Shown one piece after another: positions 18,185-35,668 of a stretch of DNA of 64,000 nt. Under the pieces are notes generated by a model, which saw nothing but the letters and a program-made list of their open reading frames with translations, did not search any database and was not told the DNA's origin. Made by a program: the position numbers and the translations under genes. Source of the stretch: Mucilaginibacter xinganensis. Lineage in GTDB: Bacteria; Bacteroidota; Bacteroidia; Sphingobacteriales; Sphingobacteriaceae. How positions within the stretch are numbered: the first letter of the stretch is position 1; each line of letters opens with the position of its first letter. The stretch is taken from assembly GCA_026225055.1 (NCBI GenBank), contig JAMFSA010000086.1, forward strand, positions 1-64,000, read 5' to 3'.

Positions 18185-19201
18185 ATGGGGGAAGTGAACA
18201 TAAAAAAACTTGCCTGTGAACTGAATTTATCGGCGGCTACTGTTTCAAGGGCACTCCGCGATAGTCATGAGATCAGTACTGAAACAAAGATCAGGGTACT
18301 TGAGATGGCCAAAAGGCTTAATTATGAGCCAAATCCATTCGCCAGCAGCCTGCGCAGGCAAAAAAGTAAAACGATTGCGGTTATAGTACCTGAGATAGCT
18401 AATAATTTTTTTTCACTCGCCATAAATGGTATTGAAGAAGTGGCACGCGAGCGGGATTATCATGTATTGATATACCAGACGCATGAAAACAGGGAAATTG
18501 AAACATCTTTTCTTAACCGCCTTTTAAGCGGGCGCGTTGATGGTATTTTAATATCGCTTGCTTGCGAAGATGTAGATAAAGAGCACATTGAAAAAATAAG
18601 TGACCAGGTGCCCATAGTATTTTTTGATCGTGTGGATGATGATATTGAAGGAGTAAAAATTACTACTGACGATTATGAAAGCGCCTATAACGCCGTACAG
18701 CACCTTATTGAAAATGGGTGTAAAAAAATAGGTTATCTATTAGCCCTAAACTCTTTATCAACAGGTAAAAAGCGATTAAAAGGCTATCTGGATGCTTTAA
18801 AAGATAAAGGCCTTCCTGATGATAAGCAGTTGATTTTGAAAAGCAGCGCAAACAATGATGAAAACCACACGCTCATCAAAAATTTTATTGCCGAACATCG
18901 ACCTGATGGTATATTATCCTCTATTGAAGAGCTTGCCATGCCTTGTTATTATGCCTGTAATGAACTGGGGTTAAATATCCCAAATGATCTAAAGCTCATC
19001 AGCTTTTCAAATCTCGCACATGCGCAACTGCTTAACCCATCGCTTACTACCATTAACCAGCCCGCCTTTGAAATAGGCGTGGAAGCGGCGGGTATCTTGT
19101 TTAAGATATTTAACAAACGATGGTACGAGCCAAATGAAACTATTATACTGAAATCCAATTTGATAAAAAGGGAATCAACACGGGGCTTTACTATCATCTA
19201 A
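18185..19201 (+). CDS. LacI-family transcriptional regulator
   Basis: 338 residues from the ATG at 18185. The longer frame starting at 18074 is rejected because it would translate through the operator and places 37 non-family residues before the HTH. Residues 3-50 ('VNIKKLACELNLSAATVSRALRDS ... LEMAKRLNYEPN') are the LacI HTH with hinge helix. Residues about 60-338 are the periplasmic-binding-protein-like effector domain ('KTIAVIVPEIANNFFSLAINGIE', 'VDGILISLACEDVD', 'LTTINQPAFEIGVEAAGILF'). It should repress its own gene and the symporter-MIOX operon through the shared palindromes, and perhaps the divergent SusC operon. The effector is unknown; inositol or a released sugar is a reasonable guess. 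Its stop overlaps the convergent AraC gene by 4 bp. Confidence 0.93.
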   Translation: MGEVNIKKLACELNLSAATVSRALRDSHEISTETKIRVLEMAKRLNYEPNPFASSLRRQKSKTIAVIVPEIANNFFSLAINGIEEVARERDYHVLIYQTHENREIETSFLNRLLSGRVDGILISLACEDVDKEHIEKISDQVPIVFFDRVDDDIEGVKITTDDYESAYNAVQHLIENGCKKIGYLLALNSLSTGKKRLKGYLDALKDKGLPDDKQLILKSSANNDENHTLIKNFIAEHRPDGILSSIEELAMPCYYACNELGLNIPNDLKLISFSNLAHAQLLNPSLTTINQPAFEIGVEAAGILFKIFNKRWYEPNETIILKSNLIKRESTRGFTII

Positions 19202-20067
19202 ATAAAAACTCTCTTACCAACATAATTCTCCCTGAACTCCTTTGGTGTCAGACCTTTCTTGCTTTTAAATGTGCGGTTAAAGTTAGCCATGTTGTTAAAG
19301 CCGCATTTGTAGGCTATTTCGGCTATAGATTGGTTGGTATCTATCAGCATGCGCGATACGTGGCCCAGCCGGATCTCGTTCAGGTTCTCTACAAAAGAAT
19401 TACCCGTACGGTATTTTATAAAGCGGCTAAATGACGCATCGGCCATATTGGCTACCTGGGCGGCATCGGCCAGGGTAATGTGTTCGTAAAAGTTGTTGTT
19501 CATATACTCAAAAACCTTCTCCACGCGGCGGCTGATATAACTGCACTCCTCATCAATAAAGGTAGAATCGGAGAGCAGTTTAAAATCACGTGATACGGAC
19601 AGTTGATTAAGAATAGAAAGCAACTCCAGGATAGAATCGAAACCCATTCTTTTATATAAAGCAACTATGCGCGGGGCAAGTGCATCAATAGTATTTTTTG
19701 AGAAAAGGATGCCTCGCTTAGCGTTCTCAAACATATTCCTGATGTTAACCAGCTGGTTCTTCTTCAGGAATTTATCGTCAAACAGATCGCTATGAAATTG
19801 TATGGTCACCTCCCTTATATTTTCACTGCTACAATTATGAGTGAACCAGCCATGCGCCAGGTTTGGGCCGACGCATACCAATTCGCATTCTTCAATTTCG
19901 CCAATATGGTTGCCCACTATACGTTGCGCACCTGATCCGTTCAGTATCAGGTTTATTTCCAGATAATCGTGGTTATGCAACGGGAAATCAAACCCGTTCT
20001 TCTCCCTCGAAAATATAGCGAAACAATCGTTTTTAGTTAAAGGCGTAACTTCCCTTATTATATCCAT
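19198..20067 (-). CDS. AraC-family transcriptional regulator with cupin sensor
   Basis: 289 residues. The N-terminal half is a cupin-type ligand-binding domain ('FDFPLHNHDYLEINLILNG' near 26-45). The C-terminal 100 residues hold the paired HTH of AraC/XylS proteins ('ITLADAAQVANMADASFSRFIKYRTG', then 'SIAEIAYKCGFNNMANFNRTFKSKKGLTPKEFRE'). It is in the same direction as, and 45 bp after, the GH26 gene, so it may be the last gene of the locus-2 operon. It converges on the LacI gene with a 4-bp overlap of stop codons. A carbohydrate-responsive activator is likely; the target is not shown by the sequence. Confidence 0.9.
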   Translation of the reverse strand: MDIIREVTPLTKNDCFAIFSREKNGFDFPLHNHDYLEINLILNGSGAQRIVGNHIGEIEECELVCVGPNLAHGWFTHNCSSENIREVTIQFHSDLFDDKFLKKNQLVNIRNMFENAKRGILFSKNTIDALAPRIVALYKRMGFDSILELLSILNQLSVSRDFKLLSDSTFIDEECSYISRRVEKVFEYMNNNFYEHITLADAAQVANMADASFSRFIKYRTGNSFVENLNEIRLGHVSRMLIDTNQSIAEIAYKCGFNNMANFNRTFKSKKGLTPKEFRENYVGKRVFI

Positions 20068-20112: not shown

Positions 20113-21174
20113 CTATTTCCAGCCGGGCATTTTATCAAGTGTTATTACATTTGGCGCGGTGTAAAGCGCTTTTAACTGGGCCGTTGTATTACCTGCATAA
20201 GTAAGCTCTGACCAGCTCATAAAAAACGTCCATTTTGGTTGTGCCAGTAACTGCGCGGCGGTTGGTAAAACTTCGCACTCGCCAATGGCAATAGGCTTGC
20301 CTGCGGCGACAGTTACCATGGTATTATATTTAGCTGCTGTATAGCCGCTGCCATCATAAACATCAAGCGCAGCTATATCAAAATAGGTGCTGCCGGGGTT
20401 GTAGGCGTTTACATCATCACTCAGCGTACTAAAATCCTGTAGATCCCAGATCCATACCAGGTTGGTGAGGCCCTTGGTATTGGTCATGTAATCGTGCATG
20501 TATTGGTACAATTTGCGGGTACCGTTTGGCCCGGGCCTGCCTCCCCACCAAAAGCTGCTTTGGTTCATCTCGTGCAATGGACGCCATAATACCTCAATGT
20601 TCTTATCTTTTAATTGCTGCAGGTATGAGCATACCTCATCCATCATGCCGCGCCATTGGGTGTTTACAGTTGTACCTGCCGTGAAGAGATCGCTCCATTG
20701 CTGGTCGGTCATTTTGCTGAGGACGCCGGTTGTATCATAACCACAAGGTTCAGACCGTGCAGGATTACAGGCATGCCACATGAGGTGTACCAGCGCACCA
20801 TTGTTCCACTGGGTAATGGCTTCGTTGATCATGATCTGGCGGTTATCGATATTATCCTGTTCAAACAAAAAATCGCCGCTCCAAAAACCGGGGAATTTCC
20901 CTGTGGTTTTATAGATAGAATCTGTCCACACAGCCGGTGTAGCATTTGGCTCACGGTTATGGATACCTGCTACCGTTTTTGAACCTGATATATTGTACAG
21001 GTAATTGAGTGTTTTAAACGCGGTAACAGGTGGCTTAGGCGTGGTATCGACAGGCGGCGTAGTGGTGGTGGTTGTTTGCGTACCTGTGCTTTTTGTGGGG
21101 CTTGATTTTGAGCATGATACTGTAATGCACACCGAGGTTGCAATTGCCAATATAAATAAATTCATTTTTTTCAT
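20113..21174 (-). CDS. GH26 beta-mannanase-like lipoprotein
   Basis: 353 residues. The lipoprotein signal ends 'ITVSC', followed by a Ser/Thr/Pro-rich linker (about 22-52) and a GH26 TIM barrel. Catalytic features are clear: acid/base Glu near residue 202 in 'WRPLHEMNQSSFWWGG', and nucleophile Glu in 'IAIGECEVLP' near 298. 'VWIWDLQDF' lies between them. GH26 enzymes are retaining endo- or exo-beta-mannanases, with a few exceptions acting on mixed-linked glucan or xylan. The surface lipoprotein with linker suggests attachment to the outer membrane beside SusC/D. It ends the group SusC-SusD-lipoprotein-GH26, whose promoter matches that of the GH2 beta-mannosidase-like gene. Confidence 0.92.
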   Translation of the reverse strand: MKKMNLFILAIATSVCITVSCSKSSPTKSTGTQTTTTTTPPVDTTPKPPVTAFKTLNYLYNISGSKTVAGIHNREPNATPAVWTDSIYKTTGKFPGFWSGDFLFEQDNIDNRQIMINEAITQWNNGALVHLMWHACNPARSEPCGYDTTGVLSKMTDQQWSDLFTAGTTVNTQWRGMMDEVCSYLQQLKDKNIEVLWRPLHEMNQSSFWWGGRPGPNGTRKLYQYMHDYMTNTKGLTNLVWIWDLQDFSTLSDDVNAYNPGSTYFDIAALDVYDGSGYTAAKYNTMVTVAAGKPIAIGECEVLPTAAQLLAQPKWTFFMSWSELTYAGNTTAQLKALYTAPNVITLDKMPGWK

Positions 21175-21270: not shown

Positions 21271-22194
21271 TTATTGTTTTTTTACATCTATCCAGTAGGT
21301 GTACGGCCGTTCAACTATCTTATCGTAATCAGAATAAATAGTGTTGTAGTTATCGGCGCTGCCCGGCAGGTTAGTGAAGGTAAAGGCACTATTGGTAATA
21401 GTTTTTGTGAGCCCGTTACCCAGGTTTATGCTTTGCGCACCATCAAACGTACAGGTGGATGTGGTACCATCGGCAAACGTGAAGGTTACCGTGTTGGTAG
21501 TATAATTGTGTACCCATTTGCCTGTACCCTCAGGTATTTGCCTATAATAGTGGTTTACATCAGTTACCGGGTTTTGGGTATAAATAAAGTTGGCATATAA
21601 ACCATCCGGACCAGCATCGTTAACAATGCTGCCATAAGTGTTACCATCGCTGGTTACGCCGGTATAGGTAAAGGTTAATGTATTATCCAGTTCGGCATTG
21701 GGACCGGTAGTTGGGTTCCATACATTTTTTGATTCGAGCGTAAACACTGCGCCGCCACCATATTGCGGGCCGGTACCACCGTAAACGGTGAGATCCTGGA
21801 TAGTGAACGTACCTAATAATGCTTCAGAGAAAGGCACAAGTACCACAGTCCATTTGCGGGTTTCGCCTGTTTCGGCAGTTACAGTATAGGTAGCCTGGTT
21901 ATTAGTAGCTGCAAAATTTACTGTTGTACCTGATGCTGGCGCGATGGTTGATTTATAAGAAGTAACGATGGTTGGCGTAACTTTAGTGAGATCGGTATTG
22001 GGCTGTACAAGCACTTTTACCGTAACCTTTGATGAATCCCTGTCGACAACCGCGGGCCCTATCTGCACCAGGCCATTGCCCAGTGTAAATTCTTCAATTG
22101 CACGCTCATGGCTTTTAATACCTGCCGAAGGATCTTTTTGGCAGGCAGTAAACATCACTGCAATTAATAAAACTATATAACTTAAATGTTTCAT
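21271..22194 (-). CDS. Surface glycan-binding-type lipoprotein (SusE/DUF5018-like)
   Basis: 307 residues. The lipoprotein signal is 'LIAVMFTAC' (Cys about 18). Residues about 30-130 form an Ig-like/DUF5018-type domain ('AIEEFTLGNGLVQIG...VTPTIVTSYKSTIAPASG...YTVTAETGETRKWTVVL'). The remainder is beta-rich, with many aromatic residues and Thr/Asn/Gly ('YGGTGPQYGGGAVFTLES', 'YWIDVKKQ' at the end). It occupies the position after SusD where PULs encode SusE/SusF-type surface binding proteins, 20 bp downstream of the SusD stop. The ligand is likely the same glycan as the SusCD pair; a direct family match is only moderate. Confidence 0.7.
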   Translation of the reverse strand: MKHLSYIVLLIAVMFTACQKDPSAGIKSHERAIEEFTLGNGLVQIGPAVVDRDSSKVTVKVLVQPNTDLTKVTPTIVTSYKSTIAPASGTTVNFAATNNQATYTVTAETGETRKWTVVLVPFSEALLGTFTIQDLTVYGGTGPQYGGGAVFTLESKNVWNPTTGPNAELDNTLTFTYTGVTSDGNTYGSIVNDAGPDGLYANFIYTQNPVTDVNHYYRQIPEGTGKWVHNYTTNTVTFTFADGTTSTCTFDGAQSINLGNGLTKTITNSAFTFTNLPGSADNYNTIYSDYDKIVERPYTYWIDVKKQ

Positions 22195-22213: not shown

Positions 22214-23722
22214 CTAATTATTTAAATTCGGATTTTGATTAACCTCTGCCTGAGGGATCGGGAAGTAATATGGGTCGCCGGTGATGGTTTTTCCATACTG
22301 TGTTTCCAGCACTGATTCCATCTGGTGGCTTCTTCTCAGGTCGAATAAACGGTTACCTTCAAAACATAATTCCCATGAGCGTTCCTGTATCACGGCATTC
22401 CTGAAATCGGTAATGCTTAATGATGGTGGCAAGTTGCCCAGGCCAGCACGTGCACGGATCCTGTTCACAGCAGTATAACCATCACTTGTCGGGCCGCAGG
22501 CTTCGGCATAAACTAACAGTACATCCGAGAAACGTAGGATAGGCGTATTGGCGCTGGTCTGTTGTCCGGCGATCCAGCCTGAATCATTAAATTTATTACT
22601 GAAAGGGCGGTATTGCGCATCGGTAATGCTTAGTACCATTGTTGTACCTGCATTGCCCCCATTATCGCCAACATCGTGAATGGTTGATATGATCAGCTGC
22701 GTTTTGCGTTTATCATTCGGATCAAAACTGTTATAGATACCCGGCTCAGTTAAGAACTCGTTAAAACCTCCGGGCACAAAAACACCATCAGGCAATCTGA
22801 AATTTAAGTTCGGATAAAAGAATAATGGCAGCTTTGAATACTGGCCTTCGTCGGCACCTGAGCGGTCGACTGAAGCATCAAAAATATGCTCAGGCCCGAA
22901 CTTTGAGTTTACATCATAAATATTAGTAAGACTTGGGTCGAGGCCATACACCGTCTGACTGTTTACTACCAAGCCCGCATATTGCTTGGCGCTGGCGTAC
23001 ATGTCATCGGCACTGGTAACCCAATCATAACCCGGCGAGCCGGTAGCTTTAGCAGAAGCTAATGTGAGGTACACTTTTGATAACAAACCCCAGGCACCAA
23101 CTTTGTTAACCCTGCCAAGCCTCACGTTTTCATCCATCATGCCCGCGGCTTTGGTAAGGTCTGAAATGATCTGCGCGTAAACCACCTGCATGGTTGATTT
23201 CGGCAGGTTGGTTTGGCTGATATCATCAACCGGATCAAGGTGCAGAGGAACACCGCCGAATAGGCGTACCAGGTTAAAATAATGCAACGCCCTTAAAGTA
23301 TAAGCCTCGCCGAGGATCTCATTTTTTGCAGAATCGGTAATACCGGTTGTAATTGCTGGTACATATTTTATAACCAGGTTGGCCCGGTTTATCCCAACAT
23401 ACGGAAACTGGTAAGCAGGCGCTAAAACTCCGTTTGTAGCGGTAACGGTATTATTATCCAGCAACTGCTCGTCTGCACTTTTACCGGCGGCCGATGCAAC
23501 ATCTTCCGTTGGTAACTCAGTTAATACGATAAAGTTACGCGAGTAATAATCCAGATCGGGCAGTATGGAATAGGCGTAAATTAAAGCCGCGTTAGCATCT
23601 GCCTCGGTTTTATAAAAGTTTGTGGTGGAAAGGAACCCGTAAGGTTTTTCTTCCAGCTCCTTTTTACATGACAGTATTACTGTCATGGCAAGGAGAATAA
23701 ATATATATTGAAATTTTTTCAT
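22214..23722 (-). CDS. SusD/RagB-family glycan-binding lipoprotein (locus 2)
   Basis: 502 residues with a lipoprotein signal (VILSC, Cys about 19). Features of the family include 'NFYKTEADANAALIYAYS', 'VGINRANLVIKYVPAI', 'ILGEAYTLRALHYFNLVRLFGGVPLHLDPV' near 145-175, and the C-terminal 'VIQERSWELCFEGNRLFDLRRSHQ ... YYFPIPQAEVNQNPNL'. It starts 20 bp after the SusC stop and precedes the surface lipoprotein and GH26, so it is part of a mannan-type utilisation operon. It is expected on the cell surface capping its SusC. Confidence 0.95.
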   Translation of the reverse strand: MKKFQYIFILLAMTVILSCKKELEEKPYGFLSTTNFYKTEADANAALIYAYSILPDLDYYSRNFIVLTELPTEDVASAAGKSADEQLLDNNTVTATNGVLAPAYQFPYVGINRANLVIKYVPAITTGITDSAKNEILGEAYTLRALHYFNLVRLFGGVPLHLDPVDDISQTNLPKSTMQVVYAQIISDLTKAAGMMDENVRLGRVNKVGAWGLLSKVYLTLASAKATGSPGYDWVTSADDMYASAKQYAGLVVNSQTVYGLDPSLTNIYDVNSKFGPEHIFDASVDRSGADEGQYSKLPLFFYPNLNFRLPDGVFVPGGFNEFLTEPGIYNSFDPNDKRKTQLIISTIHDVGDNGGNAGTTMVLSITDAQYRPFSNKFNDSGWIAGQQTSANTPILRFSDVLLVYAEACGPTSDGYTAVNRIRARAGLGNLPPSLSITDFRNAVIQERSWELCFEGNRLFDLRRSHQMESVLETQYGKTITGDPYYFPIPQAEVNQNPNLNN

Positions 23723-23741: not shown

Positions 23742-26700
23742 TTAGAAACTAACAGTTACACCCAGTGAGTACTGCCTCGGCTTTAAATAAGCGCTGTTAT
23801 TTTGCCCGTTTGAACCAACTTCCGGATCGAAGCTTGGTCCAACCTTATCAAACGTGTACAGGTTACTGCCAGAGAAATAGACACGCAGATTGCTAACCCC
23901 TTTTATTAAGTTTGGCTTTAAGGTGTAACCCAGGTTTACGTTTTGGATACGTAAATAGGAGCCACTTTCTACATACCAGTTTGAAGCATAATAAACCCTT
24001 GTTGAGTTTACGCTCGGGTAAGCGTTTGTAGGGTTATCAGGTGTCCAGGCTTGCAGTTGCGCGCTTGGTGTAAACTTGGCGAAATTGAAAATATCGTTTC
24101 CATATACACCGTTCAGCTGCACATACAGATCAAACGAGCCATACTTTACACTTGTGTTAAAACCATAATATCCTTTTGGATTTGGGTTGCCAATAATGTA
24201 TTCGCCCTGCCCTACCGGGAGTGGACCACCTGCAATGTATTTGATATCGCCAACCGTGGCTGGTGTACCATCAACCGGGTTAGTGCCACCTGCTTTTTGA
24301 ACGATGCCATCAAATTTGTATCCTAAGAAAACATTAGCTGGCTGCCCGTTAATGTAATAATTCAATGGTGCCCTGATCGATTCTATATCCGCGCCATTCG
24401 ATTCAATATTTTCGCCACCACCTATGCTGATAACCTTATTACGGTTAAAGGCAATATTGGCGCCCACATTCCAGGTAACTTTACCCTGTAAAATCCGGGC
24501 GTTACCGGCAAGCTCAAGTCCTTTATTATCAATAGTACCATCATTTACCTCAATAAGTGAGAACCCTGACGATAGCGCGATTTGCTCTGCTCTTAATAAA
24601 TTAGTGGTATGTTTATAGTAATAATCCGCGGTTAATGTAAATCGCTGATCCAGCAAACCCAAATCAAAACCGATATCAAGCTGACTGGTGGTTTCCCACT
24701 TCAGGCTCTTATTCTCCAAACCATCAAATACTTTTGAATTTACGTTCGACCCGTCATTGTAATACGGAGGGCCATAACCTGTTTGGAAAGATGTACTGCC
24801 CGGCGTACCTGTATAGTATTTATAGCTACCCAGTGTTGATAAGGATTGATAAGGCTGGATGCCCTGGTTACCGGTAACACCATAGCTGGCACGCACCTTT
24901 AACTCAGAGATCTGTGTGATATTCTTCATAAAAGGCTCGTCATTTACCTTCCAGCCAATTGCTCCTGATGGAAAGAACGCGAACTTGTTATTTTCTCCAA
25001 ATACGGAAGAACCATCTAAACGACTGGTAAATGTGAACAGGTAGCGATTTAGAAAACTATAATTTACCCTGGCAATACCCGATTCCAGTACTGTTTTGGT
25101 TTCGCCATTGGATATAAACTGTGTGGTTGCTGAAGCTAAGTTCTGGTCGTTTAATACATCATTCACAAAACCATGGCCTTGTAGGTCTGATGTTCTTGTA
25201 ATGTTGGTTTCATTGGTAAAACCAGCTACCACATTAATATGGTGTTTTTTACCGAAATCCCTGTCGTAAGTAAGGTAAGTTTCATCAATAACGTGGTTAT
25301 TATTATAGTTATTGATATCGCCATATCCTTGGAATAAATTACCGGTATTGGTTGCATCGCGCGGCTGGTAATTATCATTAACGGCATTACCGAAGGTGTA
25401 GCTGATCTGCGCACGCAGGTTTAGCCCCTTAATAATATCCCAGCTAACGTATGCTGTTGATAACAGATCGAGTGTTTTACTGGTATTTAATACAGTATAA
25501 GCAGTTTGCAACGGGTTGCCAAAGTCATTAGCACCGATGTGGAAATAAGTACCATCAGGGTTATAAGCCGGGAATATAATACTGCGGCTGGCAGATAGCT
25601 CCTGTCCATAATCATAAGTTTGGGTTATAATTATGTTGGTGCCTAAAGTAACATTGGGCTTAAGCTTATGCTCCAAATTAATATGACCAGTGTATTTATG
25701 ATAGCCGTTCTCGATATTAAGGCCCTGCTCATTATAGTAATTTAATGATACTGCATAACGTGTTTTTTCATCACCGCCATCGGCAGATAAGGTATAGTTT
25801 TGTGAGATAGGTTTGCGGTAAACCAGATCTGCCCAATCTGTGTTATAGGGCCATTTAGGCTTGCTGGGGTCCAACCCTCTTAGTTCATCTAATGATGGAT
25901 AATAAGTACCGCCGTAAGTTTGCCCGGTAAAAAGCGGAACAACGCCACCATTAATATTCGCCTGGTTTTCTATAGTAGCTTCCTGTACCGGATCATGCCA
26001 TACATCCAGTTTATTTTGCAGGGTAGACAGTGTGGTTAGCGAACTAAAATTGATATGCGATTGCCCCTGTTTACCTCTTTTGGTGGTCACCATAATTACG
26101 CCGTTGGCACCCCTTGAACCATAGATAGCGGTAGATGACGCGTCTTTTAGCACATCTATCGATTCTATATCATCAGGGTTGATCTGCTTCAAATTACCCG
26201 CATCGCCGTATTCAATCCCATCAACTACGACTAAAGGGTTACCATCGGCATTTATTGACCCCTGCCCCCTGATCGTGATCTGGGCGCCTGCACCCGGCTG
26301 GCCCGATGAAGTTACCACCTGTACACCCGCCACTTTGCCTTCTAAAAGCTGGTCGACAGATGAAGCAGGTGTTTTGATCAGCTCGCTTCCTTTTATAGAA
26401 CCTACCGAACCTGTCAAATCACCTTTTTTGGCAGTACCGTAACCTACAACCACCACTTCATTTAAATCGCGCGAAGCGTTTTCGAGGGTGATCTGCAGAT
26501 CATTTTTACCGGGCTCAACCTTAACCGTTAAGGTTTGCATGCCTATAAATGAAAATACCAGTGTATTTTGGCCGAGGGGCAAGCTTATTGAAAACTTTCC
26601 CTTACTATCGGTAGCCGTTCTAACTGATGTTCCCGCAACGGAAACAACTACGCCGGGTAAGGATATACCTTGCTTATCGGCCACTACGCCTGTAACAACT

Positions 26701-26780
26701 TTTTGCTGCGCCAGTGCAAGATCTGCACCGAACAAAAAAAGCATTATACAAACACATGTTGTGTAAATCTTTTTCCTCAT
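23742..26780 (-). CDS. SusC/RagA-family TonB-dependent outer-membrane transporter (locus 2)
   Basis: 1012 residues from the ATG at 26780 ([14 protein letters not shown], signal ending LALAQ). The first ATG of the frame, at 26807, lies inside the promoter segment and is rejected. The order is CarboxypepD_reg-like domain (about 25-105), '[21 protein letters not shown]', plug ('[22 protein letters not shown]', '[30 protein letters not shown]'), and barrel ending 'YSLGVTVSF'. It is energised through TonB and imports oligosaccharides. Its promoter carries the paired GTGTA site shared with GH2 and the lipoprotein at 34871-35587, so control by the divergent hybrid sensor is strongly suggested. Confidence 0.96.
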   Translation of the reverse strand: [1012 protein letters not shown]

Positions 26781-26804: not shown

Positions 26805-26860
26805 CAATTATAGCGGGTTGCTGAGCGGCAGTATTACACTATTGTATCTTAATAGTACAC
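26805..26860 (-). promoter_or_regulatory. HTCS-type activator site and -7 element of the locus-2 SusC promoter
   Basis: On the minus strand, GTGTA half-sites (26856-26860 and 26835-26839) are spaced 21 bp apart start to start. They are followed after exactly 22 nt by TATAATTG (26805-26812), resembling the Bacteroidota -7 element TAnnTTTG. The start codon is 25 nt further. Two other promoters in the window have identical spacing (31310-31365 and 35613-35668). Directly repeated half-sites about two helical turns apart suit a dimeric AraC-type output domain. The remaining 26861-27146 carries no other feature I can support except the start region of the hybrid sensor gene. Confidence 0.8.
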
Positions 26861-27146
26861 TATGCAATAAAGAGGACCATTTGTGTACTGTTTGGTAATA
26901 ACAATATACTTTTCAGGGAAGAAACATTAGAGAGTGGTTAATATAATACCACATCCTATTTATAATGTTAACTGATTTTAAGATATGAACAAACCCCCAT
27001 GCTGATGTAATGATATTTTAACCAATTTAATGTTAAAAAAGTATTAATGCTGATACCGCTAAAAAATTTAGATTTGGGTTGTAAGCATTCGCTGCTTTTT
27101 TATAAACCAATATTTCCATTTTTTCACCCACCATAGTATTTTAATT

Positions 27147-30100
27147 ATGAAGTACAGGTACTTATATATTTTCGTGGCTCTTTTCCTGATGTGCACTGCA
27201 AAGGGGTATGCCCAGTATAATTACCAGCAACTGGATAACAGTTACGGCTTATCAAACAGCTGTATAAACAGTATTTACCAGGATAGCGATAACCTGATAT
27301 GGTTTGCTACATGGGATGGCCTTAACTATTATAACGGCAACAACATCCATGTGTTTAATTATGAGAAAACGGACCTGAATAAAAATTCCATATCCAGCAA
27401 TGTGATATACCAGGTTACCGAGGATAAAAAGCGGAATATTTGGATCGGTACGGTTGAGGGTTTATCAAAATTCAATAAAAACACGGGCGATTTCAGCAAT
27501 TACCTGTACAGTCATAACAAGGCATTATCAAACGGTTACACCATCGCCATAAATAATAAGGGCGATGTATATGCGGCACGGGTAAGCAGCTCACAACTGC
27601 TGCATTATGATGAAAAAACGGACGCGTTTGTGAGTATCCCCATGAAATTTGCCCCCAGCTTAATGCTGGTAAAGCTGATGTTTGATGATAAGGGGATTTT
27701 ATGGCTGCAACTAAGCAATGGCAGACTTGAAGCTTATAACAATACAGCAAATGGCTTTGTTAAACTGCCCAACTATTCACCTGCTGATAATGTAGATAAC
27801 ATATTTTACTGTAACCACCAGTTCTTTTACAGCACCACAAACGATGAACTATACCGTATTGGCACTGATTACAGTAAGCAAAAAGTATTGCTCCTGCCGC
27901 ATGAGATCCGCGAAATGGGAATTTTTAAAGGGCATTACCTCTTCGCATGGTCATCAAAAGGAATTGGTGAGTATGATACCGCTTTTAAGCCTGTAGACCT
28001 GCTGAATAATGAAATACCTGTACTGCAAAATGTGCGGGTAACCTCGCTAATGAGTAACGGTGAAAATTTACTGTGGATTGGTACCGATGGCAATGGCGTT
28101 ATTAAAGTCACCAAAAAGGAGAACTACTTTGGCATAGTTAAGCAACAGGCCAACGGGCAGGCATTCCACATCCCGGTGCGGGCATTCTCTGAAATCAATG
28201 ACGAGTTGTGGATCGGCACCAAGGGCAACGGCATTATCACGTTAAAGAATTGGGATAAAAATGATGTGTCGTTCTCGGGCATCAAATCATTCCATACCAA
28301 TGTGGAACTGTTAGATAACTGCGTATATTCTATTGAAAAAGGCAAGGATGGCTTGGTTTACATTGGCTCAGATGCACCGGGTGTTACGCTGTATAACCTC
28401 AAGACTAAAAAATTTATTAAATGGGCCGATATTAAGGGCACACAGGCTTACCCCTACTTTGGTTCGGTACACTGCATTTTGTATGACAGGGATAGCTCCG
28501 TTTGGCTGGGCTTGAATGACAACGGCCTCATTCATTTTAAATTAACAGCTGACAAGGATGGTAATCCGGCCTTGAAATACCTGAATCAATACAAGTACAA
28601 TAACAACGCCCCCGAAAGCAATAAAGGACCCGGCAATAATGTAATTTACAGTCTGGCAAATGGCAACGACGATCGCTTGTGGATTGGCTGCCGTTATGGT
28701 GGCTTAACCTTGTTCAACAAAAAGACACAGAAATTCAGTACGCTGAAGGCTTTTTCTTATGATGGTAGTCTCTCAAATAATGATATTCTTTCGCTTTATC
28801 TCGACCATAAGAACAAGCTTTGGGTGGGCACCAGTTTTGGTTTAAACTGGGCCGATGAATCCGAAGCAGGCAAATCGGCAAAGCCCGTATTTAAAAAATT
28901 GTATGTTGATAATGGATTACCTAACAATACCATCCACGCCATTAATGAGGATAATACCGGCAATATATGGATCAGCACCAATAAGGGTTTGGCTAAGATC
29001 AACCCGGCTACTTTGAAGATCGTTCAATATAAGGAATCAGATGGTTTGCAGAGCGATGAGTTCAGCGATAATGCGGTATGGAAGAACTCGGCAGGCATGC
29101 TGTTTTTTGGCGGTATCTATGGTTTTAATTACTTCCTGCCGGAGCATATTCATATTAATAATGAACAGCCGCGCTTGTTGCTGTCCGACCTGCAATTTGC
29201 TGGCAAAAGCGTGGTTGAACGGGGTTTGATCGTACTGACAAAAAATGGCGCGGTTTCCAACCAGCATTTCACACTTAAACCAAATGAAAATTATTTTGAG
29301 CTGAATATTGAACCCGTAACTTATACCGACGCGCAGAAATGCCAGTATGCCTATAAACTGGAAAATGATGACAAGGACTGGCATTATATGGAAAACCATG
29401 ATAAGATCATCTACAACCAGCTGGCACCGGGCAATTATACGTTAAGGATCAAATGGTCGAACGGGGAAGGTGCGTGGACGCCGGGCATTGTGGCATTTTC
29501 GGTAACGGTTAAACAGTATTTCTGGCTTACTTCGTGGGCATTTATATTGTACGCGCTGATTCTGGCGGGTTCGGCTTATTTATATTTCCGTTACAAAAAG
29601 AACAAGTTTGTAATGAGTCAGGAATTGAAAATGGAGCACATGCTGCGCGAAAAGGATGAAAAACTGCACCAGGAACAGCTTAACTTTTTCACCAATATAG
29701 CTCATGAACTGCAAACGCCTTTGACCCTCATTTTAGGCTCGTTGGAACGTTACCTGTTTAAGAACAAACAAAGCGATAGGGAGCAGCAGGGCGGCAACTT
29801 CCTGTCCATCGTAAAGCAGGAAGCATCGCGGTTGCATTATTTGATACAGCAGTTACTGGAGTTCCGCAAGGCGGAGGCCGGGCGCTTGAGCAATCATTTC
29901 AGTTATATTAATGTATCGGGCCTGTTAACCAATATAGCAGGCTTGTTTACCGCTTTGGTTGATGAAAAGCAGCTGGATTTTTCGTGGCAGATAACACCTG
30001 ATGTTCAGCTTTGGACGGATAAGGATAAGATTGAGAAGATAGTTTTTAACCTGTTATCAAACGCGTTTAAATATACAGATGAGCATCAATATATCATCTT

Positions 30101-31292
30101 TTCGGTTAACGCGCTGAATGAGGAAGGCAAACTGGAAATTATTGTGGCTAACTCGGGCTGCAAGCTTACAGAGAGCGAGACGGAACATTTGTTCGACCGC
30201 TTTTTTGTGATTGATGGCAAACAAAACAACAAAAGCAGCACGGGTATAGGATTGGCATTTACCCAGCAGATAGTTAACCTGCTGGACGGTGAAATAACCG
30301 CCGCCTGTGCCGATAACTGGATCACATTTAAGGTATTGCTACCATTGGATTATATCCCTGAAAAAGCAAATGCGCTAAATGATTACGCAGAAAAAAGCGA
30401 AAAAGCATCCTATCTGGTAAGCTCCATGACTACAGGGACTGAAAGTATTGACATTGCCCCTATCGCTGTAAACAACAAAAAATCGCTCATTAAAAGTTTT
30501 GAGCAGGAGCATAAAAAGTCGATCTTGATAGTTGAGGACGACCAGTTGATCCGTTACCTGTTAAAAGATATCTTGCACGAGCATTATATTATTTATGAAT
30601 CGGGCACCGGGCTCGAGGCATTGGATGTAGTGAAACGCTCCTGCCCCGATCTTATCATCAGCGATATTATGATGCCGGATATGAACGGGCTGGAACTGTG
30701 TAACATTATTAAAAACACGACGGAAACCTGTCATATCCCGTTTGTGATATTATCGGCACGTACGGCTATCGAGCATAAAACCGAAGGCTATAACTGCGGC
30801 GCTGATGCTTATATCCCGAAGCCTTTTCAAACTGAACATTTATTAGTCAGGGTGCATAAATTATTGGAGTACCGTGAGAAAATGCACAAAGCTTTCAGGC
30901 CGGATCAAAACCTGATCTCAACCGTTGCTACAAACGATTTGGATGAGAACGACAAGAACTTCATTAAGAAGGTAACCCGCGTAATTGAGGAGAACATGGA
31001 CGAGGAACTGGATGGCGAATACCTTGAAAAGGCTTTAAACATGAGTAAGATCCAGTTGTACCGCAAGATCAAGACATTTTCGGACATGACACCTACCGAA
31101 CTGATCAGGCATATCAGGCTGAAAAAGGCTGCGGCACTGTTACAGAGTACGGATCTAACCGTATCAGAAATTTTCTATCGTACCGGGTTTAACAACAAAA
31201 CTTATTTTTTCAGGGAGTTTAAAAAGATGTATAACTCATCGCCGAATGATTACAGGCATTTGCACCGCCTACCCGACTTTAACAGGAACTAA
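27147..31292 (+). CDS. Hybrid two-component system sensor/regulator (HTCS)
   Basis: 1381 residues. A signal peptide (ends KGYAQ) leads into a periplasmic double beta-propeller of two-component propeller repeats ('IWIGTVEGLSKFNKNTG', 'LWIGTDGNGVIKV', 'LWVGTSFGLNW' and others, about 30-680), a Y_Y_Y domain (about 690-785) and one membrane helix (about 793-815). The cytoplasm holds a histidine kinase (H853 in 'NIAHELQTPLT', N-box around N968, G2 'STGIGLAF'), a receiver (phospho-acceptor D1173 in 'ISDIMMPDMNG', Lys in 'YIPKPF'), and an AraC HTH (about 1275-1380). HTCS proteins bind an oligosaccharide in the periplasm and activate their own PUL. The ATP-lid G1 motif is degenerate: N1002 (ANSGC) stands where DxGxG is usual. 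It is divergent from SusC and upstream of GH2. Confidence 0.96.
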   Translation: MKYRYLYIFVALFLMCTAKGYAQYNYQQLDNSYGLSNSCINSIYQDSDNLIWFATWDGLNYYNGNNIHVFNYEKTDLNKNSISSNVIYQVTEDKKRNIWIGTVEGLSKFNKNTGDFSNYLYSHNKALSNGYTIAINNKGDVYAARVSSSQLLHYDEKTDAFVSIPMKFAPSLMLVKLMFDDKGILWLQLSNGRLEAYNNTANGFVKLPNYSPADNVDNIFYCNHQFFYSTTNDELYRIGTDYSKQKVLLLPHEIREMGIFKGHYLFAWSSKGIGEYDTAFKPVDLLNNEIPVLQNVRVTSLMSNGENLLWIGTDGNGVIKVTKKENYFGIVKQQANGQAFHIPVRAFSEINDELWIGTKGNGIITLKNWDKNDVSFSGIKSFHTNVELLDNCVYSIEKGKDGLVYIGSDAPGVTLYNLKTKKFIKWADIKGTQAYPYFGSVHCILYDRDSSVWLGLNDNGLIHFKLTADKDGNPALKYLNQYKYNNNAPESNKGPGNNVIYSLANGNDDRLWIGCRYGGLTLFNKKTQKFSTLKAFSYDGSLSNNDILSLYLDHKNKLWVGTSFGLNWADESEAGKSAKPVFKKLYVDNGLPNNTIHAINEDNTGNIWISTNKGLAKINPATLKIVQYKESDGLQSDEFSDNAVWKNSAGMLFFGGIYGFNYFLPEHIHINNEQPRLLLSDLQFAGKSVVERGLIVLTKNGAVSNQHFTLKPNENYFELNIEPVTYTDAQKCQYAYKLENDDKDWHYMENHDKIIYNQLAPGNYTLRIKWSNGEGAWTPGIVAFSVTVKQYFWLTSWAFILYALILAGSAYLYFRYKKNKFVMSQELKMEHMLREKDEKLHQEQLNFFTNIAHELQTPLTLILGSLERYLFKNKQSDREQQGGNFLSIVKQEASRLHYLIQQLLEFRKAEAGRLSNHFSYINVSGLLTNIAGLFTALVDEKQLDFSWQITPDVQLWTDKDKIEKIVFNLLSNAFKYTDEHQYIIFSVNALNEEGKLEIIVANSGCKLTESETEHLFDRFFVIDGKQNNKSSTGIGLAFTQQIVNLLDGEITAACADNWITFKVLLPLDYIPEKANALNDYAEKSEKASYLVSSMTTGTESIDIAPIAVNNKKSLIKSFEQEHKKSILIVEDDQLIRYLLKDILHEHYIIYESGTGLEALDVVKRSCPDLIISDIMMPDMNGLELCNIIKNTTETCHIPFVILSARTAIEHKTEGYNCGADAYIPKPFQTEHLLVRVHKLLEYREKMHKAFRPDQNLISTVATNDLDENDKNFIKKVTRVIEENMDEELDGEYLEKALNMSKIQLYRKIKTFSDMTPTELIRHIRLKKAAALLQSTDLTVSEIFYRTGFNNKTYFFREFKKMYNSSPNDYRHLHRLPDFNRN

Positions 31293-31309
31293 GCGATAAA
31301 AAACAGTCA

Positions 31310-31365
31310 GTGTACTCAATTGATAGTATGGTGTACCGATGGGTTTGGGGTATAAATTATTATTG
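31310..31365 (+). promoter_or_regulatory. HTCS-type activator site and -7 element of the GH2 promoter
   Basis: GTGTA at 31310-31314 and 31331-31335 (21 bp apart) is followed after 22 nt by TATTATTG at 31358-31365, 34 nt before the GH2 ATG. The half-site spacing and distance to the -7 element equal those at 26805-26860 and 35613-35668. It lies just after the stop of the hybrid sensor gene, so GH2 has its own regulated promoter rather than depending on read-through. Confidence 0.8.
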
Positions 31366-31398
31366 TAAACTATACAGTAAACCCATAAATCTAAATTA

Positions 31399-34233
31399 AT
31401 GCCATCTAATTACTCCGGTTACCGAAGACCTGTTATTACCTCTTTTTTACTATCGACACTATTTTTCAGCACACCTATTCAGGCCCAGTATAAGCTTAAT
31501 TACGGACTCAGCAAGCTACAGGATAAAAGCACCTTGCCGCAATCCCGGGCCGCCTATATCAAGCCTGTGTTAAAGGCAAAAACAAACACGCAAACTATTT
31601 TAAAGCTCACACAGGACGGTGTCTATACAATTACCAACGGTTGGGAACTGGCAACCGGGCCAACTGTAAAAGCAAACGGCCAATCATTATCACAACCCGG
31701 CTACAATACCCGGCAATGGTACAACGCTGTTGTGCCGGGTACGGTACTCACGTCGCTGGTGAAGCAGGGCGTGTACCCCGACCCTTATTTTGGGTTGAAT
31801 GACCTGCAGATCCCCGACTCACTTTGCAGGCAGGATTGGTGGTATCGTACCTCATTTAAAACCCCTGCGGAGCATCAAAACGAGCATGCTTTTTTAAATT
31901 TTGAAGGGGTTAATTATGCGGCTGAGGTCTGGCTTAATGGTAAGATGATCGGCAGTATTAAAGGCGCATTTAAGCAGGGTGTTTTTGATGTATCAGTCGG
32001 TTTAAATTTTAGTGGCGATAATGTATTGGCAGTGCATATCCTTCCACCGCCTGATCCCGGCATACCGCACGAGGAATCACCATTGGCTGGTACCGGGCCC
32101 AATGGCGGCGCTTTATGTTTGGATGGGCCAACCTTTATAGCAACCGAAGGATGGGATTGGATCCCCGGCATCCGCGACAGGGATATGGGCATCTGGCAGA
32201 ATGTATCGCTGAAATTTACCGGTCCGGTTACAATAACTGATCCGCACATTATAACGCACCTGCCATTACCTGATACTACCAGCGCGGGCATTACCATTGA
32301 GGCAGAATTGCATAACCTATCGGCGCAGCCACAACAAATAACGTTAAAGGGAGAGATCGGCAGCATAAAATTTGAGCAGCGTTTTGGTCTTAAAGCGTAT
32401 CAAAGCAGGGCAGTTGGTTTTACTCCGGCGGAATTTAAACAGCTGGATATTCAGCACCCGCGTTTGTGGTGGCCCAATGGTTACGGCAGGCCTGAATTGT
32501 ATAGTTTAAAACTCACGGCGGTAAACTCAGCAAATAAATTATCCGATAAACAAACAGTCCGTTTCGGTATAAGGGAATTGAGTTATGAGATGACGGTTGA
32601 TATGCCGGGCAACACGCATAAACGAGTGGAATATCAGCCTGTCATCGCCTTGAAAAATAAAACTTCATTATTTGATAACGTGGACAGATCGCAGGCGGCA
32701 AACGATGTGGCTATTGCGAAGTTAAAGGCTGGTGTTGATACGGCCCTATTAAAATCCTGCGATGATGAAGCAACCGCGCCTTACCTGGTGATAAAAGTTA
32801 ACGGCAAGCGCATTTACTGCAAAGGCGGTAACTGGGGTATGGATGATGCTATGAAAAATGTATCGCGTGAGCATCTGGAACCTTATTTCAGGCTGCATCG
32901 GGATGCGCATTTTAACATGATCAGGAACTGGACGGGTGAGAGTACCGAGCAAACTTTTTACGACCTGTGCGATGAATACGGCATGCTGGTTTGGAATGAT
33001 TTCTGGTTGTCTACACAAGGTTTTAACCTGGATGTCAAGGACGATTTGTTATACTTAGTCAATGCGCAGGATGTTATTAAACGCTTCCGCAATCACCCGT
33101 CAATAGCGATATGGTGCCCGCGTAATGAGGGTTATGCCCCTGCCGGGATAGAAAATAAGCTGGCGGATATAGTGGCGAAGTATGACGGCACCAGGTATTA
33201 TCAGCCCAACTCCCGCTTCATGAACCTCCGCACCAGTGGGCCGTGGAACTATTTTACCCATCCGGGAGATTATGAGAAAATAGCAAGTGGCTTTAGTACA
33301 GAGCTGGGTAGTCCGTCGGTGCCAACCGCCGCCGCCATGCGCAAAATGATGGCTAAAGAAGACCTATGGCCCATTGGCGATGTTTGGTATTACCATGATT
33401 TTCATGACGGGCAAAAGGAATATGTAGCAGCAATGGATTCGTTATATGGCAAAGCCACTGACCTGGATGATTTCTGCAAAAAAGCGCAGCTACTTAATTA
33501 CGACAGTTACCGCGCCATGTTTGAGGGCTGGGGAAGCAAGCTTTGGAACAACACCAGCGGATTGCTCCTATGGATGAGCCACCCCGCATGGCCCAGTACC
33601 GACTGGCAAACCTACTCGTGGGATTATGAAACCTTCGGCTCCTATTTTGGCTCGATGAAGGCCTGCGAGCCTGTACATGTGCAAATGAGTTTGAATAACA
33701 ACAACATCAGCGTAATTAATACCTCATTACAAACCTTTACAGACACTAAAACGCAATTATTGATCTACGATATACAAGGCAAGCAAGTTTACGCACACGT
33801 AACGAATGCCGCTATTAAAGCCAACGGGTTAACCGGCATTTATAAAGCACAATTTCCGGATGAACTTAATGGAGTTTATTTAGTTAGATTGATGTTAACC
33901 GACAGTAATAAGCATATCCTTTCTCAAAATGATTATTGGAAAACATTTGGCGGCACTAAAACTTTTGCAGCTTTTAACGGATTAAGTAAGGCTCAACTAA
34001 GTATAGATAAAATCAATAATCATCAATACAAGATATCAAATACTTCAAAAGTTCCGGCGGTAGCCGTAAAGTTAAATCTTGTTAAAGCGGCAAGCAGATC
34101 TATTATATTGCCGGCTTATTTTTCGGATGGTTATTTTAATTTATTGCCGGGAGAGAGTAAAGTGGTGAATGTTGATTATGCTGGTAAGCAAGATGTGTTT
34201 GTTAGCGCTGATGGGTATAATGTGAAAGAATAG
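31399..34233 (+). CDS. GH2 exo-beta-mannosidase/glucosaminidase-like enzyme, exported
   Basis: 944 residues with a signal peptide (ends TPIQAQ, about 30). Domains: sugar-binding jelly roll (about 75-265, 'WYRTSFKTPAEHQNEHAFLNFEGVNYAAEVWLNG' region), Ig-like beta-sandwich (about 270-400), and TIM barrel with acid/base E577 ('CPRNEG') and nucleophile E635 ('FSTELG'). C-terminal Ig-like domains follow ('QTFTDTKTQLLIYDIQG', ending 'VVNVDYAGKQDVFVSADGYNV'). The subgroup with a large loop before the barrel resembles exo-beta-mannosidases and exo-beta-D-glucosaminidases of GH2 rather than LacZ-type galactosidases. With GH26 controlled by the same promoter type, removal of beta-mannose from manno-oligosaccharides is the best guess. 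Confidence 0.88.
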   Translation: MPSNYSGYRRPVITSFLLSTLFFSTPIQAQYKLNYGLSKLQDKSTLPQSRAAYIKPVLKAKTNTQTILKLTQDGVYTITNGWELATGPTVKANGQSLSQPGYNTRQWYNAVVPGTVLTSLVKQGVYPDPYFGLNDLQIPDSLCRQDWWYRTSFKTPAEHQNEHAFLNFEGVNYAAEVWLNGKMIGSIKGAFKQGVFDVSVGLNFSGDNVLAVHILPPPDPGIPHEESPLAGTGPNGGALCLDGPTFIATEGWDWIPGIRDRDMGIWQNVSLKFTGPVTITDPHIITHLPLPDTTSAGITIEAELHNLSAQPQQITLKGEIGSIKFEQRFGLKAYQSRAVGFTPAEFKQLDIQHPRLWWPNGYGRPELYSLKLTAVNSANKLSDKQTVRFGIRELSYEMTVDMPGNTHKRVEYQPVIALKNKTSLFDNVDRSQAANDVAIAKLKAGVDTALLKSCDDEATAPYLVIKVNGKRIYCKGGNWGMDDAMKNVSREHLEPYFRLHRDAHFNMIRNWTGESTEQTFYDLCDEYGMLVWNDFWLSTQGFNLDVKDDLLYLVNAQDVIKRFRNHPSIAIWCPRNEGYAPAGIENKLADIVAKYDGTRYYQPNSRFMNLRTSGPWNYFTHPGDYEKIASGFSTELGSPSVPTAAAMRKMMAKEDLWPIGDVWYYHDFHDGQKEYVAAMDSLYGKATDLDDFCKKAQLLNYDSYRAMFEGWGSKLWNNTSGLLLWMSHPAWPSTDWQTYSWDYETFGSYFGSMKACEPVHVQMSLNNNNISVINTSLQTFTDTKTQLLIYDIQGKQVYAHVTNAAIKANGLTGIYKAQFPDELNGVYLVRLMLTDSNKHILSQNDYWKTFGGTKTFAAFNGLSKAQLSIDKINNHQYKISNTSKVPAVAVKLNLVKAASRSIILPAYFSDGYFNLLPGESKVVNVDYAGKQDVFVSADGYNVKE

Positions 34234-34261
34234 ACTTGCTTAGTGGTTACTTATCGCATGA

Positions 34262-34710
34262 AGCCGCTCATTGCCGCGGAGGCTACTACTTTTGTCTTGA
34301 TACAAAAGGTAGCAAAAAATCAAGACAAAAAGATCCTTCCGCCCACAGGCAAAACACCCAGGCCCGCGCTTTTTGTCGGGCCTTTCCCCACTTTTAATCA
34401 AAGTTCAATTAAAGTGTTCTGCTTGAATAGCGTTTTTTCTTTTTCTCTTTTCCCGTCAGTAGAACAGCTTCGGGCGAAAGTAGGCAAAACGATGGTGGCC
34501 TTGAGCGCAATGGCAGGGCATAGCAGATTTTTACAGAAGCGTAAAGGCCTAAGTGCGTAGCGACAGCTGGGTAAAAATATAGCAGCCCAGATTTTGCCTG
34601 ATTTGCGGGGCAATGGCCTTGTGCGGCACAGAAGCATTTCTACTGACTAGCCTTTTTGGTCCTTTTGTGGCGAAGACAAAAGGACTAAGCCTCCGCGGCA
34701 ATGAGCGGCT
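34262..34710. mobile_element. 449-bp MITE-like element with perfect 23-bp terminal inverted repeats
   Basis: The terminal repeats lie at 34262-34284 and 34688-34710 (outer ends AGCCGCTCATTG...) and match exactly in inverted orientation. The bases just inside are also similar (CTTTTGTCTT...ACAAAAGG on both ends). No transposase is encoded; the small frames inside are not protein-like. No clear target duplication is visible in the flanks. The element fills most of the 637-bp gap between GH2 and the lipoprotein gene. It could be a non-autonomous transposon relic or a dispersed intergenic palindrome. Confidence 0.7.
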
Positions 34711-34819
34711 GCACAAGACAAGTAAACGATATGTATAACCGCTCGGTATAGTCGGGGATTTCTTCGTTCCTCTATGACGCTTGGAGATTTTGTGATAGAT
34801 TAACACGGTGCATATTAAC

Positions 34820-34855
34820 AAAAAAGGGACTGCGATAATCGCAGCCCCTTTTTTT
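34820..34855 (-). terminator. Bidirectional intrinsic terminator after the lipoprotein gene
   Basis: A stem GGG-A-CTGCGA / TCGCAG-C-CCC with a TAA loop (34826-34848, one mismatch) is flanked by A6 on the left and T7 on the right. This gives U-tracts in both directions. It lies 16 bp after the stop of the minus-strand lipoprotein gene. Confidence 0.88.
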
Positions 34856-34870
34856 GATGAATAATTGTGA

Positions 34871-35587
34871 TTAGTAGGTAGTCATGTTGTACATCTCGAT
34901 CTGCTGACCGCTTGATGACCAACTGCTGGATGTTCTGTGGGTGGTGCCTACAAAGTAATCGTAATTGTTCCAGTAGCTGCTGCCTGCGTTTTGCATGGTG
35001 AACTTGTAGGTTCCATCCAGGTAAAAATCAACCTTACTGTGGTCGCCTGATTCGCACTGGCATTTAAAGGTGTGGTAACCATTATCATTCGAGGTTAAAA
35101 CCTGCGTGTAATAGTTGCCGTTACCTTGCAGATAAGCTTTAAGCGTGTGGTCGCTCAGGGTTTCAACAAAACCCATTTCGTGGCCGGTCCAGTTGGTTAC
35201 ATCATCGGTAACAAAAACGGCTTCTTCGTTTGAGCCGTCTGGCGCGTTGCTGCCGCCTTTAAAGCAGCCATAAAACTGCAGTCCTGTTGCATCCTGTCCG
35301 CTGCCATTGGGCTGTTGCGCACCCAGTACATCTGATGCGCCGCAGCTGGTGCCACCTACCGGCACACAAACGCCGTTCGAGCCCGATATATCATAAGGCT
35401 TATCGGTGCAGGTCCCCCATAAACTAAAGGCACTTTGGCCAATGGCTGCAAGCGAGCTGTTCTTTTTTACGGAATTTGTTACAGTGGAGGTGGTTGGTTT
35501 GCTGGCATCTTTGGTACAGCCAAAATAAACACATGCGGCAAGCGCTACCGCGCCAATGGCGGTCACATTTTTTAGTTTTGTTTTCAT
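34871..35587 (-). CDS. Lipoprotein of unknown function in the HTCS regulon
   Basis: 238 residues with a lipoprotein signal ending 'CVYFGC' (Cys about 24) and a Ser/Thr/Lys-rich spacer. The rest is a beta-rich domain with several cysteines ('WGTCTDKPYDISG', 'GVCVPVGGTSCG', 'YGCFKGG', 'KCQCESGD') and aromatic residues ('YWNNYDYFVGTTHR'). It resembles a lectin-like sandwich, but I recognise no family. Its promoter has the same paired GTGTA site and spacing as locus-2 SusC and GH2, so it is probably induced with them and may be a surface glycan-binding protein. A strong bidirectional terminator follows. Confidence 0.75.
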   Translation of the reverse strand: MKTKLKNVTAIGAVALAACVYFGCTKDASKPTTSTVTNSVKKNSSLAAIGQSAFSLWGTCTDKPYDISGSNGVCVPVGGTSCGASDVLGAQQPNGSGQDATGLQFYGCFKGGSNAPDGSNEEAVFVTDDVTNWTGHEMGFVETLSDHTLKAYLQGNGNYYTQVLTSNDNGYHTFKCQCESGDHSKVDFYLDGTYKFTMQNAGSSYWNNYDYFVGTTHRTSSSWSSSGQQIEMYNMTTY

Positions 35588-35612
35588 AAAATTGTTTAAG
35601 AATTGGTATGAA

Positions 35613-35668
35613 CAATGTTAAATGAAAACCATAAAAAGGAAATACACTATTGCTTCATAATGGTACAC
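35613..35668 (-). promoter_or_regulatory. HTCS-type activator site and -7 element of the lipoprotein promoter
   Basis: On the minus strand, GTGTA half-sites at 35664-35668 and 35643-35647 (21 bp apart) are followed after 22 nt by TAACATTG (35613-35620), 26 nt before the ATG at 35587. The geometry is identical to 26805-26860 and 31310-31365. The 32-bp block around the half-sites also agrees with the SusC copy at about three quarters of positions. Confidence 0.78.

Follow-up and report, generated by a model that had tools for sequence, protein, structure and literature searches.

Gene cluster and promoter elements

A stretch of 64,000 nucleotides from Mucilaginibacter xinganensis (assembly GCA_026225055.1, contig JAMFSA010000086.1, positions 1 to 64,000; hereafter the window) was analyzed with regard to three promoters in a cluster of SusC/SusD, glycoside hydrolase and lipoprotein genes that surrounds the gene of a hybrid two-component system (HTCS) protein (Table 1). 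Each of the three carries two GTGTA half-sites and a -7 box in a fixed arrangement, and, judged by comparison with related genomes, these sites are very probably the operators of the HTCS encoded between them, by which it would activate the SusC operon, the GH2 gene and the lipoprotein gene.

The HTCS unites a periplasmic propeller sensor, a kinase, a receiver and an AraC-type helix-turn-helix (HTH) in a single chain, has PDB relatives for its sensor and its receiver-HTH parts, and possesses the CHIP receiver motif. The genes for SusC, SusD, a 307-amino-acid protein, GH26 and an AraC-family regulator probably constitute one operon; the 307-amino-acid protein has no Pfam match and is unnamed by NCBIfam. 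For GH2 the best PDB match was the beta-mannosidase 5n6u, followed by exo-beta-D-glucosaminidases. Since GH26 matches beta-mannanases and GH2 is nearest to 5n6u, beta-mannan is the likely substrate, and the probable role of the cluster is the digestion of plant mannan.

Table 1. Positions of the promoter elements and genes of the cluster in the window
Feature	Position	Strand	Remarks
Operator 1, before SusC	26835..26860	-	GTGTA 26860-26856 and GTGTA 26839-26835, 21 bp apart; full element 26860-26805
-7 box TATAATTG	26805..26812	-	22 nt after operator 1; predicted start near 26800
Operator 2, before GH2	31310..31335	+	GTGTA 31310-31314 and 31331-31335; full element 31310-31365
-7 box TATTATTG	31358..31365	+	22 nt after operator 2; predicted start near 31370
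Operator 3, before lipoprotein	35643..35668	-	GTGTA 35668-35664 and 35647-35643; full element 35668-35613
-7 box TAACATTG	35613..35620	-	22 nt after operator 3; predicted start near 35608
HTCS, proposed binder	27147..31292	+	Pfam: Reg_prop/Y_Y_Y sensor, HisKA, HATPase, receiver, AraC-type HTH
SusC/RagA TonB-linked outer-membrane protein	23742..26780	-	First gene of target operon 1; TIGR04056, Pfam
SusD-like protein	22214..23722	-	Target operon 1; Pfam
307-amino-acid protein	21271..22194	-	Target operon 1, SusE position; kept in orthologous operons
GH26, probable beta-mannanase	20113..21174	-	Target operon 1; Pfam; PDB matches include several beta-mannanases
AraC-family regulator	19198..20067	-	Probably operon 1; Pfam; 45 bp behind GH26; rival binder or second-tier regulator
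GH2, probable beta-mannosidase or exo-glucosaminidase-like	31399..34233	+	Target 2; Pfam, PDB
238-amino-acid lipoprotein	34871..35587	-	Target 3; co-inherited with HTCS

An earlier note on this DNA had claimed one exact pattern at all three promoters in the same orientation, and direct reading of the sequence bears this out: GTGTA-N16-GTGTA-N22-TANNATTG is present without deviation upstream of the SusC, GH2 and lipoprotein genes and is identically oriented relative to the gene in each case. The half-sites are 21 bp apart in all three promoters, the TANNATTG box begins 22 nt past the second GTGTA, and further letters, overlooked in the earlier note, are conserved between the half-sites (C6, G13, mostly A15 A16 S17, A19 T20 R21). 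Between box and ATG lie 24 nt for TATAATTG and SusC (ATG at 26780), 33 nt for TATTATTG and GH2 (31399), and 25 nt for TAACATTG and the lipoprotein (35587). The SusC leaders (26780-26805 and the same place in other loci) share AAACCAA, mostly inside TAAACCAATT; several of them hold an inverted repeat, CCTCAT...ATGAGG, spanning the start codon, and with the predicted start little of the 5' arm of this repeat would be transcribed.

Taken by itself, the half-site pair is of no significance, since GTGTA-N16-GTGTA was matched 19 times in the 6.64-Mb genome and 17 times by the reversed control. Three of the 19 pairs sit within one 9-kb stretch, and only these have TANNNTTG at +22. The full pattern was matched exactly three times in the genome; allowing one mismatch added no further place, and 16 places differ at two positions, the control reaching 13 at up to two mismatches. 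A chance coincidence, to which the frequency of the bare pair might seem to point, is hardly credible in view of these counts and of the sites in all 13 orthologous loci treated below. The argument of the earlier note that such spacing would seldom arise at random thus held, and its proposed genome scan found exact matches restricted to this locus and not spread over many unrelated genes. The 16 two-mismatch matches elsewhere in the genome were not accepted as regulon members. At C142 three consecutive GTGTA lie 21 bp apart, with no -7 box at +22.

With a -7 box of the sigma-A type, the element might also be regarded as a general feature of SusC promoters or of the primary sigma factor and not as an operator. 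However, a scan of 79 kb (the window from position 5001 and the next 20 kb, two other SusC genes included) found the three sites only, and the exact full pattern is missing from 288 of 301 genomes of the family, which leaves next to no room for this view. A second SusC/SusD cluster next door (35877-49169, with DUF5695 and GH43 genes), in which no copy of the site was found, is presumably under another regulator.

Conservation in the genus and the regulator behind the sites

The family sample of 301 genomes includes 69 of the genus Mucilaginibacter; the full genus set comprises 149. HTCS orthologues were accepted from at least 57% identity and occur, with 57-68% identity, in 12 of the 148 other genus genomes, so that 13 loci including our own were available; the 12 others were scanned as stretches of up to 40 kb, that of G328 being clipped by contig ends. 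In the family sample the exact full pattern was found at 15 places in 13 genomes, as opposed to three control matches. Ten places belong to the 69 genus genomes, and eight of these lie at targets of this regulon (three in our own genome, one each in G177, G297, G291, G168 and G246), the remaining two inside coding sequence (G294, G270); the five places in other genera are at no recognisable target. Among the 68 other sampled genus genomes the exact pattern is present in five of the seven with the HTCS and in two of the 61 without it, both times in genes. This comparison is not circular, because the relatives were inspected only after the pattern had been fixed.

If variants are admitted, as in the conservation check proposed by the earlier note, one to three sites are present in all 13 loci, and six lipoprotein genes elsewhere in the genomes carry them too. 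Their consensus is GTGTACYAYWAWGAAACWATAGTGTA, followed by TAAYATTG 22 nt on. The 19 promoters concerned belong to the SusC operon in ten loci (operator 1 and its counterparts upstream of orthologous SusC in nine others), the lipoprotein in four, GH2 in two (a variant of operator 2 lies upstream of the G297 orthologue), AraC in two and a 388-amino-acid protein in one. The -7 box follows the best site after 22 nt in 16 of the 19 and after 23 nt in three, and a spacing of 21 is common to 16 of 19 by simple count. The sequence of the 22-nt spacer varies, so that the conservation does not reflect mere close kinship.

A refined 26-bp motif without the -7 box was found in 11 of the 13 HTCS genomes and in two of the 136 others, both in coding sequence; as the motif was drawn from the 13, the second figure is the informative half of the test. 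The two HTCS genomes missed, G177 and G186, carry variant sites. Outside the locus, refined-motif matches that deviate at one or two positions (27 places in total, 17 in the control) were left out of the regulon; among the few such weak matches examined, L096 and L117 lie within coding sequence and L104/L026 lacks a -7 box. In addition, a motif matrix was built from 15 sites chosen by near-match to the exact pattern, and the scores of these 15 are circular for that reason. Less circular evidence comes from the exact pattern itself, from lipoprotein genes unlinked to the cluster and from other genera. More distant HTCS homologues occur in G340, where the 42% homologue is the only one, and as second copies in G186 (49%) and G314 (42%); in three genus loci with 41-49% homologues the matrix scan found no such site, except for one weak match inside the HTCS gene of the G186 second copy.

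The regulator need not be the HTCS itself. The AraC-family protein of operon 1 could bind the sites and autoregulate, the HTCS being a mere neighbour or acting through it, and it is a plausible rival in that araC frequently adjoins a site, lying behind or beside one in our own locus and in G297, G258, G314, G345 and G001. Direct repeats are bound by few regulators, the AraC family being one of these according to the consulted part of PMC9723621. Nevertheless, AraC homologues are present in 91 of the 149 genus genomes, and 79 of these 91 lack the refined motif. In G177, which carries two sites, no AraC homologue was found at E<=1e-60 (scored: 16 of the 25 first-look candidates). The association with the motif gives a Fisher p of 0.016 for AraC and 4e-13 for the HTCS, ancestry being uncorrected and the HTCS figure helped by the origin of the motif. 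This argument from distribution is weakened by the fact that seven of the eight orthologous loci without araC have a 60-62% homologue elsewhere in the genome. The letters of the operator, moreover, seem to vary with the helices of the HTCS, a comparison made for the HTCS alone. Altogether, we consider AraC improbable as the binder. The recurrent position of araC behind the operator (own locus, G297, G258, G001) suggests a feed-forward step below the HTCS.

Further evidence that the sites belong to the HTCS comes from the lipoprotein. Intact orthologues exist in 12 of the 149 genus genomes, all of which possess the HTCS (12 of the 13 HTCS genomes). G159 and G285, without an HTCS at the cut-off, have only lipoprotein copies with an internal stop, and the broken copy in G285 retains the operator. 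A site lies directly upstream of ten of the 12 intact genes, six of the ten being located away from the cluster (a different contig in G246 and G314, a distance of 126 kb in G310 and of more than 0.6 Mb in G168, G297 and G345). These six sites, which were absent from matrix building, score 16.8-33.8, whereas the rest of each 3.7-kb locus scores at most 8.8. That lipoprotein genes outside the cluster keep the site implies regulation in trans, with a predicted HTCS regulon that would reach unlinked lipoprotein genes. Neither Pfam nor PDB profiles produced a match to the lipoprotein itself, and NCBIfam gives it no name; the same two kinds of profile search, run with ten of the 12 intact family members, likewise yielded nothing usable, and structure prediction from two sequences (mean predicted local distance difference test score, pLDDT, of 30) was too poor for a fold search.

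Other genera and the recognition helices

HTCS homologues with 45-61% identity were followed into other genera, where 13 of 28 loci were fetched. Matrix matches with a -7 box were obtained in seven of these 13 regions (five before SusC, one before AraC, one directly behind the HTCS gene) and none in the reversed control. A search by geometry only, made without a control, gave GTACA/GTATA-type pairs 21 bp apart with the -7 box at 22 nt in G078, G084, G097, G018 and the distant G186 homologue, together with several chance-looking matches. Chitinophaga shows GTACA-N16-GTACA-N22-TAnnTTTR in five of five loci. In its loci L135-L139 the HTCS homologues (46-48%) stand before a different SusC/SusD pair, the 21-bp/22-nt geometry is the same and the half-sites are GTACA.

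Two segments of the DNA-binding domain, HTH1 and HTH2, were compared with the letters of the sites. HTH1 is Q[LV]YR in all 26 loci with this motif type, i.e. the 13 orthologous loci, the seven with matrix matches, G078 and the five of Chitinophaga, the last six having been assigned to the inner-box type by eye. In all eight other loci (the second copies of G186 and G314, G340, two each of G097 and G084, and G018) the Q is replaced by Y, T, S or N. Where HTH2 is NNK, most outer half-sites read GTG[TAC]A, the SusC site of G338 and two sites of G297 being exceptions; the eight Q-type loci whose outer half-site is GTA[CT]A have NNQ. The second half-site departs from the HTH2 rule, with GTACA beside NNK (G094, G206) and GTGCA beside NNQ (G077, G093). 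As correlations along one tree, classified after the fact, these matches are suggestive of operator letters that follow the recognition helices of the HTCS. Such a shift of letters, if real, and the co-occurrence of pattern and HTCS in the genus both support the earlier note in its choice of the HTCS as binder.

Beyond these homologues, 125 promoters of fifteen other HTCS-like loci (seven of our own genome, eight of other Bacteroidota) were surveyed. Repeats spaced by 21 bp precede a -7 box in five of the 125, compared with 0-3 at the other tested spacings (shuffle mean 0.9, largest 4), and a grid scan of the same loci gave 14 cells at spacing 21 versus at most seven elsewhere, the repeat register being arbitrary there. 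Upstream of 9203 in L307, of 15618 in L310 and of 14133 in L150, 21-bp repeats with other letters lie before a -7 box and are possible operators of the regulators of those loci. A wider rule can be put forward tentatively, though we consider it rather doubtful: HTCS promoters may follow a common plan, with 16 nt between two half-sites and 22-23 nt from the second to the -7 box, and the operator letters could be predicted from the protein, HTH2 NNK or NNQ calling for outer GTG[TAC]A or GTA[CT]A, respectively, and HTH1 Q[LV]YR, as opposed to other residues at the Q, for the inner box.

Several observations weigh against the HTCS as regulator of these sites. The fifteen other HTCS-like loci gave a weak 21-bp signal and no peak at 22 nt, so that the fixed distance to the -7 box may not be general. 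Genome counts treat related genomes as separate, with shared ancestry uncorrected. A search of the 13 HTCS genomes for the motif with its -7 box, up to three mismatches being allowed, found 27 places, 21 at regulon genes and six unrelated, with seven in the control. The reversed control of the matrix scan (1.25 million bases) once reached 20.7, exceeding three of the six unlinked scores, and the -7 box is imperfect (TAnnTTCG or TAGCTTTA) at five of the six unlinked lipoprotein promoters. Not all expected targets have a site: the G291 lipoprotein gene is without one, that of G258, downstream of GH26 behind SusC, has none of its own, and in G258 the one site is that upstream of AraC, where the leader measures 82 nt; towards SusC the same gap scores at most 0.6. 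In the SusC site of G338 the first half-site, CTATA, is poor. Finally, the operator core can also be read as an imperfect dyad, ACTAY-N9-RTAGT.

The dyad would suit an unrelated, symmetric regulator that reads an inverted repeat, and positions 5-9 and 19-23 are indeed near-complementary in many sites. The arms, however, do not covary, G314, G345 and G328 having C at position 22 with no change of the C at position 6, and Chitinophaga loses the dyad but keeps the direct repeat (GTACA twice), which renders a symmetric regulator very unlikely.

Proposed mechanism and known systems

Building on the observed sites, geometry, conservation and co-occurrence, a course of events may be proposed for ligand, binding, activation, starts and operon extent. 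A beta-manno-oligosaccharide, to which the GH26 and GH2 targets point, would bind the periplasmic propeller of the HTCS, and the HTCS dimer would phosphorylate its own receivers and release two AraC-type DNA-binding domains. These would occupy the two half-sites, 21 bp or two helical turns apart, side by side and in the same orientation, the activator dimer sitting on one face of the helix. Since the TAnnTTTG box of Flavobacterium psychrophilum extends from -12 to -5 (PMC9723704, in the part consulted), the half-sites would be expected around -60 to -56 and -39 to -35 relative to the predicted starts. The location of the proximal one is consistent with the earlier note, which had placed the second half-site at the -33 position; it would substitute for the -33 element, and the activator would contact RNA polymerase at the TAnnATTG -7 box 22 nt on (22-23 in relatives). 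The regulon would then consist of the SusC-SusD-(SusE)-GH26-AraC operon, GH2 and the lipoprotein, in relatives also of unlinked lipoprotein genes.

In Escherichia coli, AraC occupies two direct half-sites 21 bp apart at araI1-I2, the proximal one touching the -35 element. The layout of half-sites is similar to ours, whereas AraC differs as a soluble, arabinose-binding regulator at a sigma-70 promoter. Promoters of the Bacteroidetes primary sigma factor have TAnnTTTG at -7 and TTTG at -33 (PMC7366714, PMC9723704, both in the parts consulted). The three promoters share with this consensus a TA...TTG box at the expected place; they differ in the A at the fifth position in three of three (TAnnATTG, one letter off TAnnTTTG, which some relatives have) and in that half-site 2 lies where the -33 TTTG is expected. 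No TTTG was found near -33 in any of the three, and one lies at about -26 before GH2.

For Bacteroides thetaiotaomicron, the main text of Ravcheev et al. (2013, PMC3878776) reports predicted operator motifs for 16 of 36 HTCSs, direct repeats on average 21 bp apart. Because 21-bp direct-repeat HTCS operators have thus been published for Bacteroides, the kind of control is already known. Its traits recur here: a two-site direct repeat of about 21 bp, placed upstream of susC/susD and of enzyme genes in the neighbourhood of the HTCS gene; conservation before orthologous targets in 13 of 13 loci, though not before every target (G258 SusC, G291 lipoprotein); and a likeness of motifs that tracks the DNA-binding domain, with Q[LV]YR in 26 of 26 versus none of eight loci (ancestry uncorrected). 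A few distant targets, and similar motifs for similar HTCSs, are likewise common to both (PMC3878776, main text). In contrast to those systems, genus and family are different and the targets are of the beta-mannan type; the motifs were compared in their geometry. A term search of the main text of PMC3878776 gave no fixed distance to the -7 box.

Binding in vitro to promoters of susC homologues was described for response-regulator fragments of the HTCSs BT4124 and BT4663 (2024 mBio, PMC11253607, in the part consulted). Like our HTCS, both have a receiver-AraC output with an S/CHIP receiver motif; unlike the beta-mannan-type targets here, BT4663 belongs to a heparin and BT4124 to a rhamnogalacturonan system, and the part consulted draws no connection to the present motif. 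In the open-licence literature we found no report of the present operator or of HTCS operator prediction in Mucilaginibacter. New in this study are the distance of 22-23 nt to the -7 box, the unlinked regulon members and the suggestive match between helices and letters.

Thus, one HTCS gains a concrete predicted operator, a promoter geometry, a regulon with unlinked genes and candidate specificity residues, and a lipoprotein family without Pfam or PDB match becomes tied to a probable beta-mannan system. If the wider rule were true, regulons of uncharacterised HTCSs would be predictable from sequence, unlinked targets such as the lipoprotein included.

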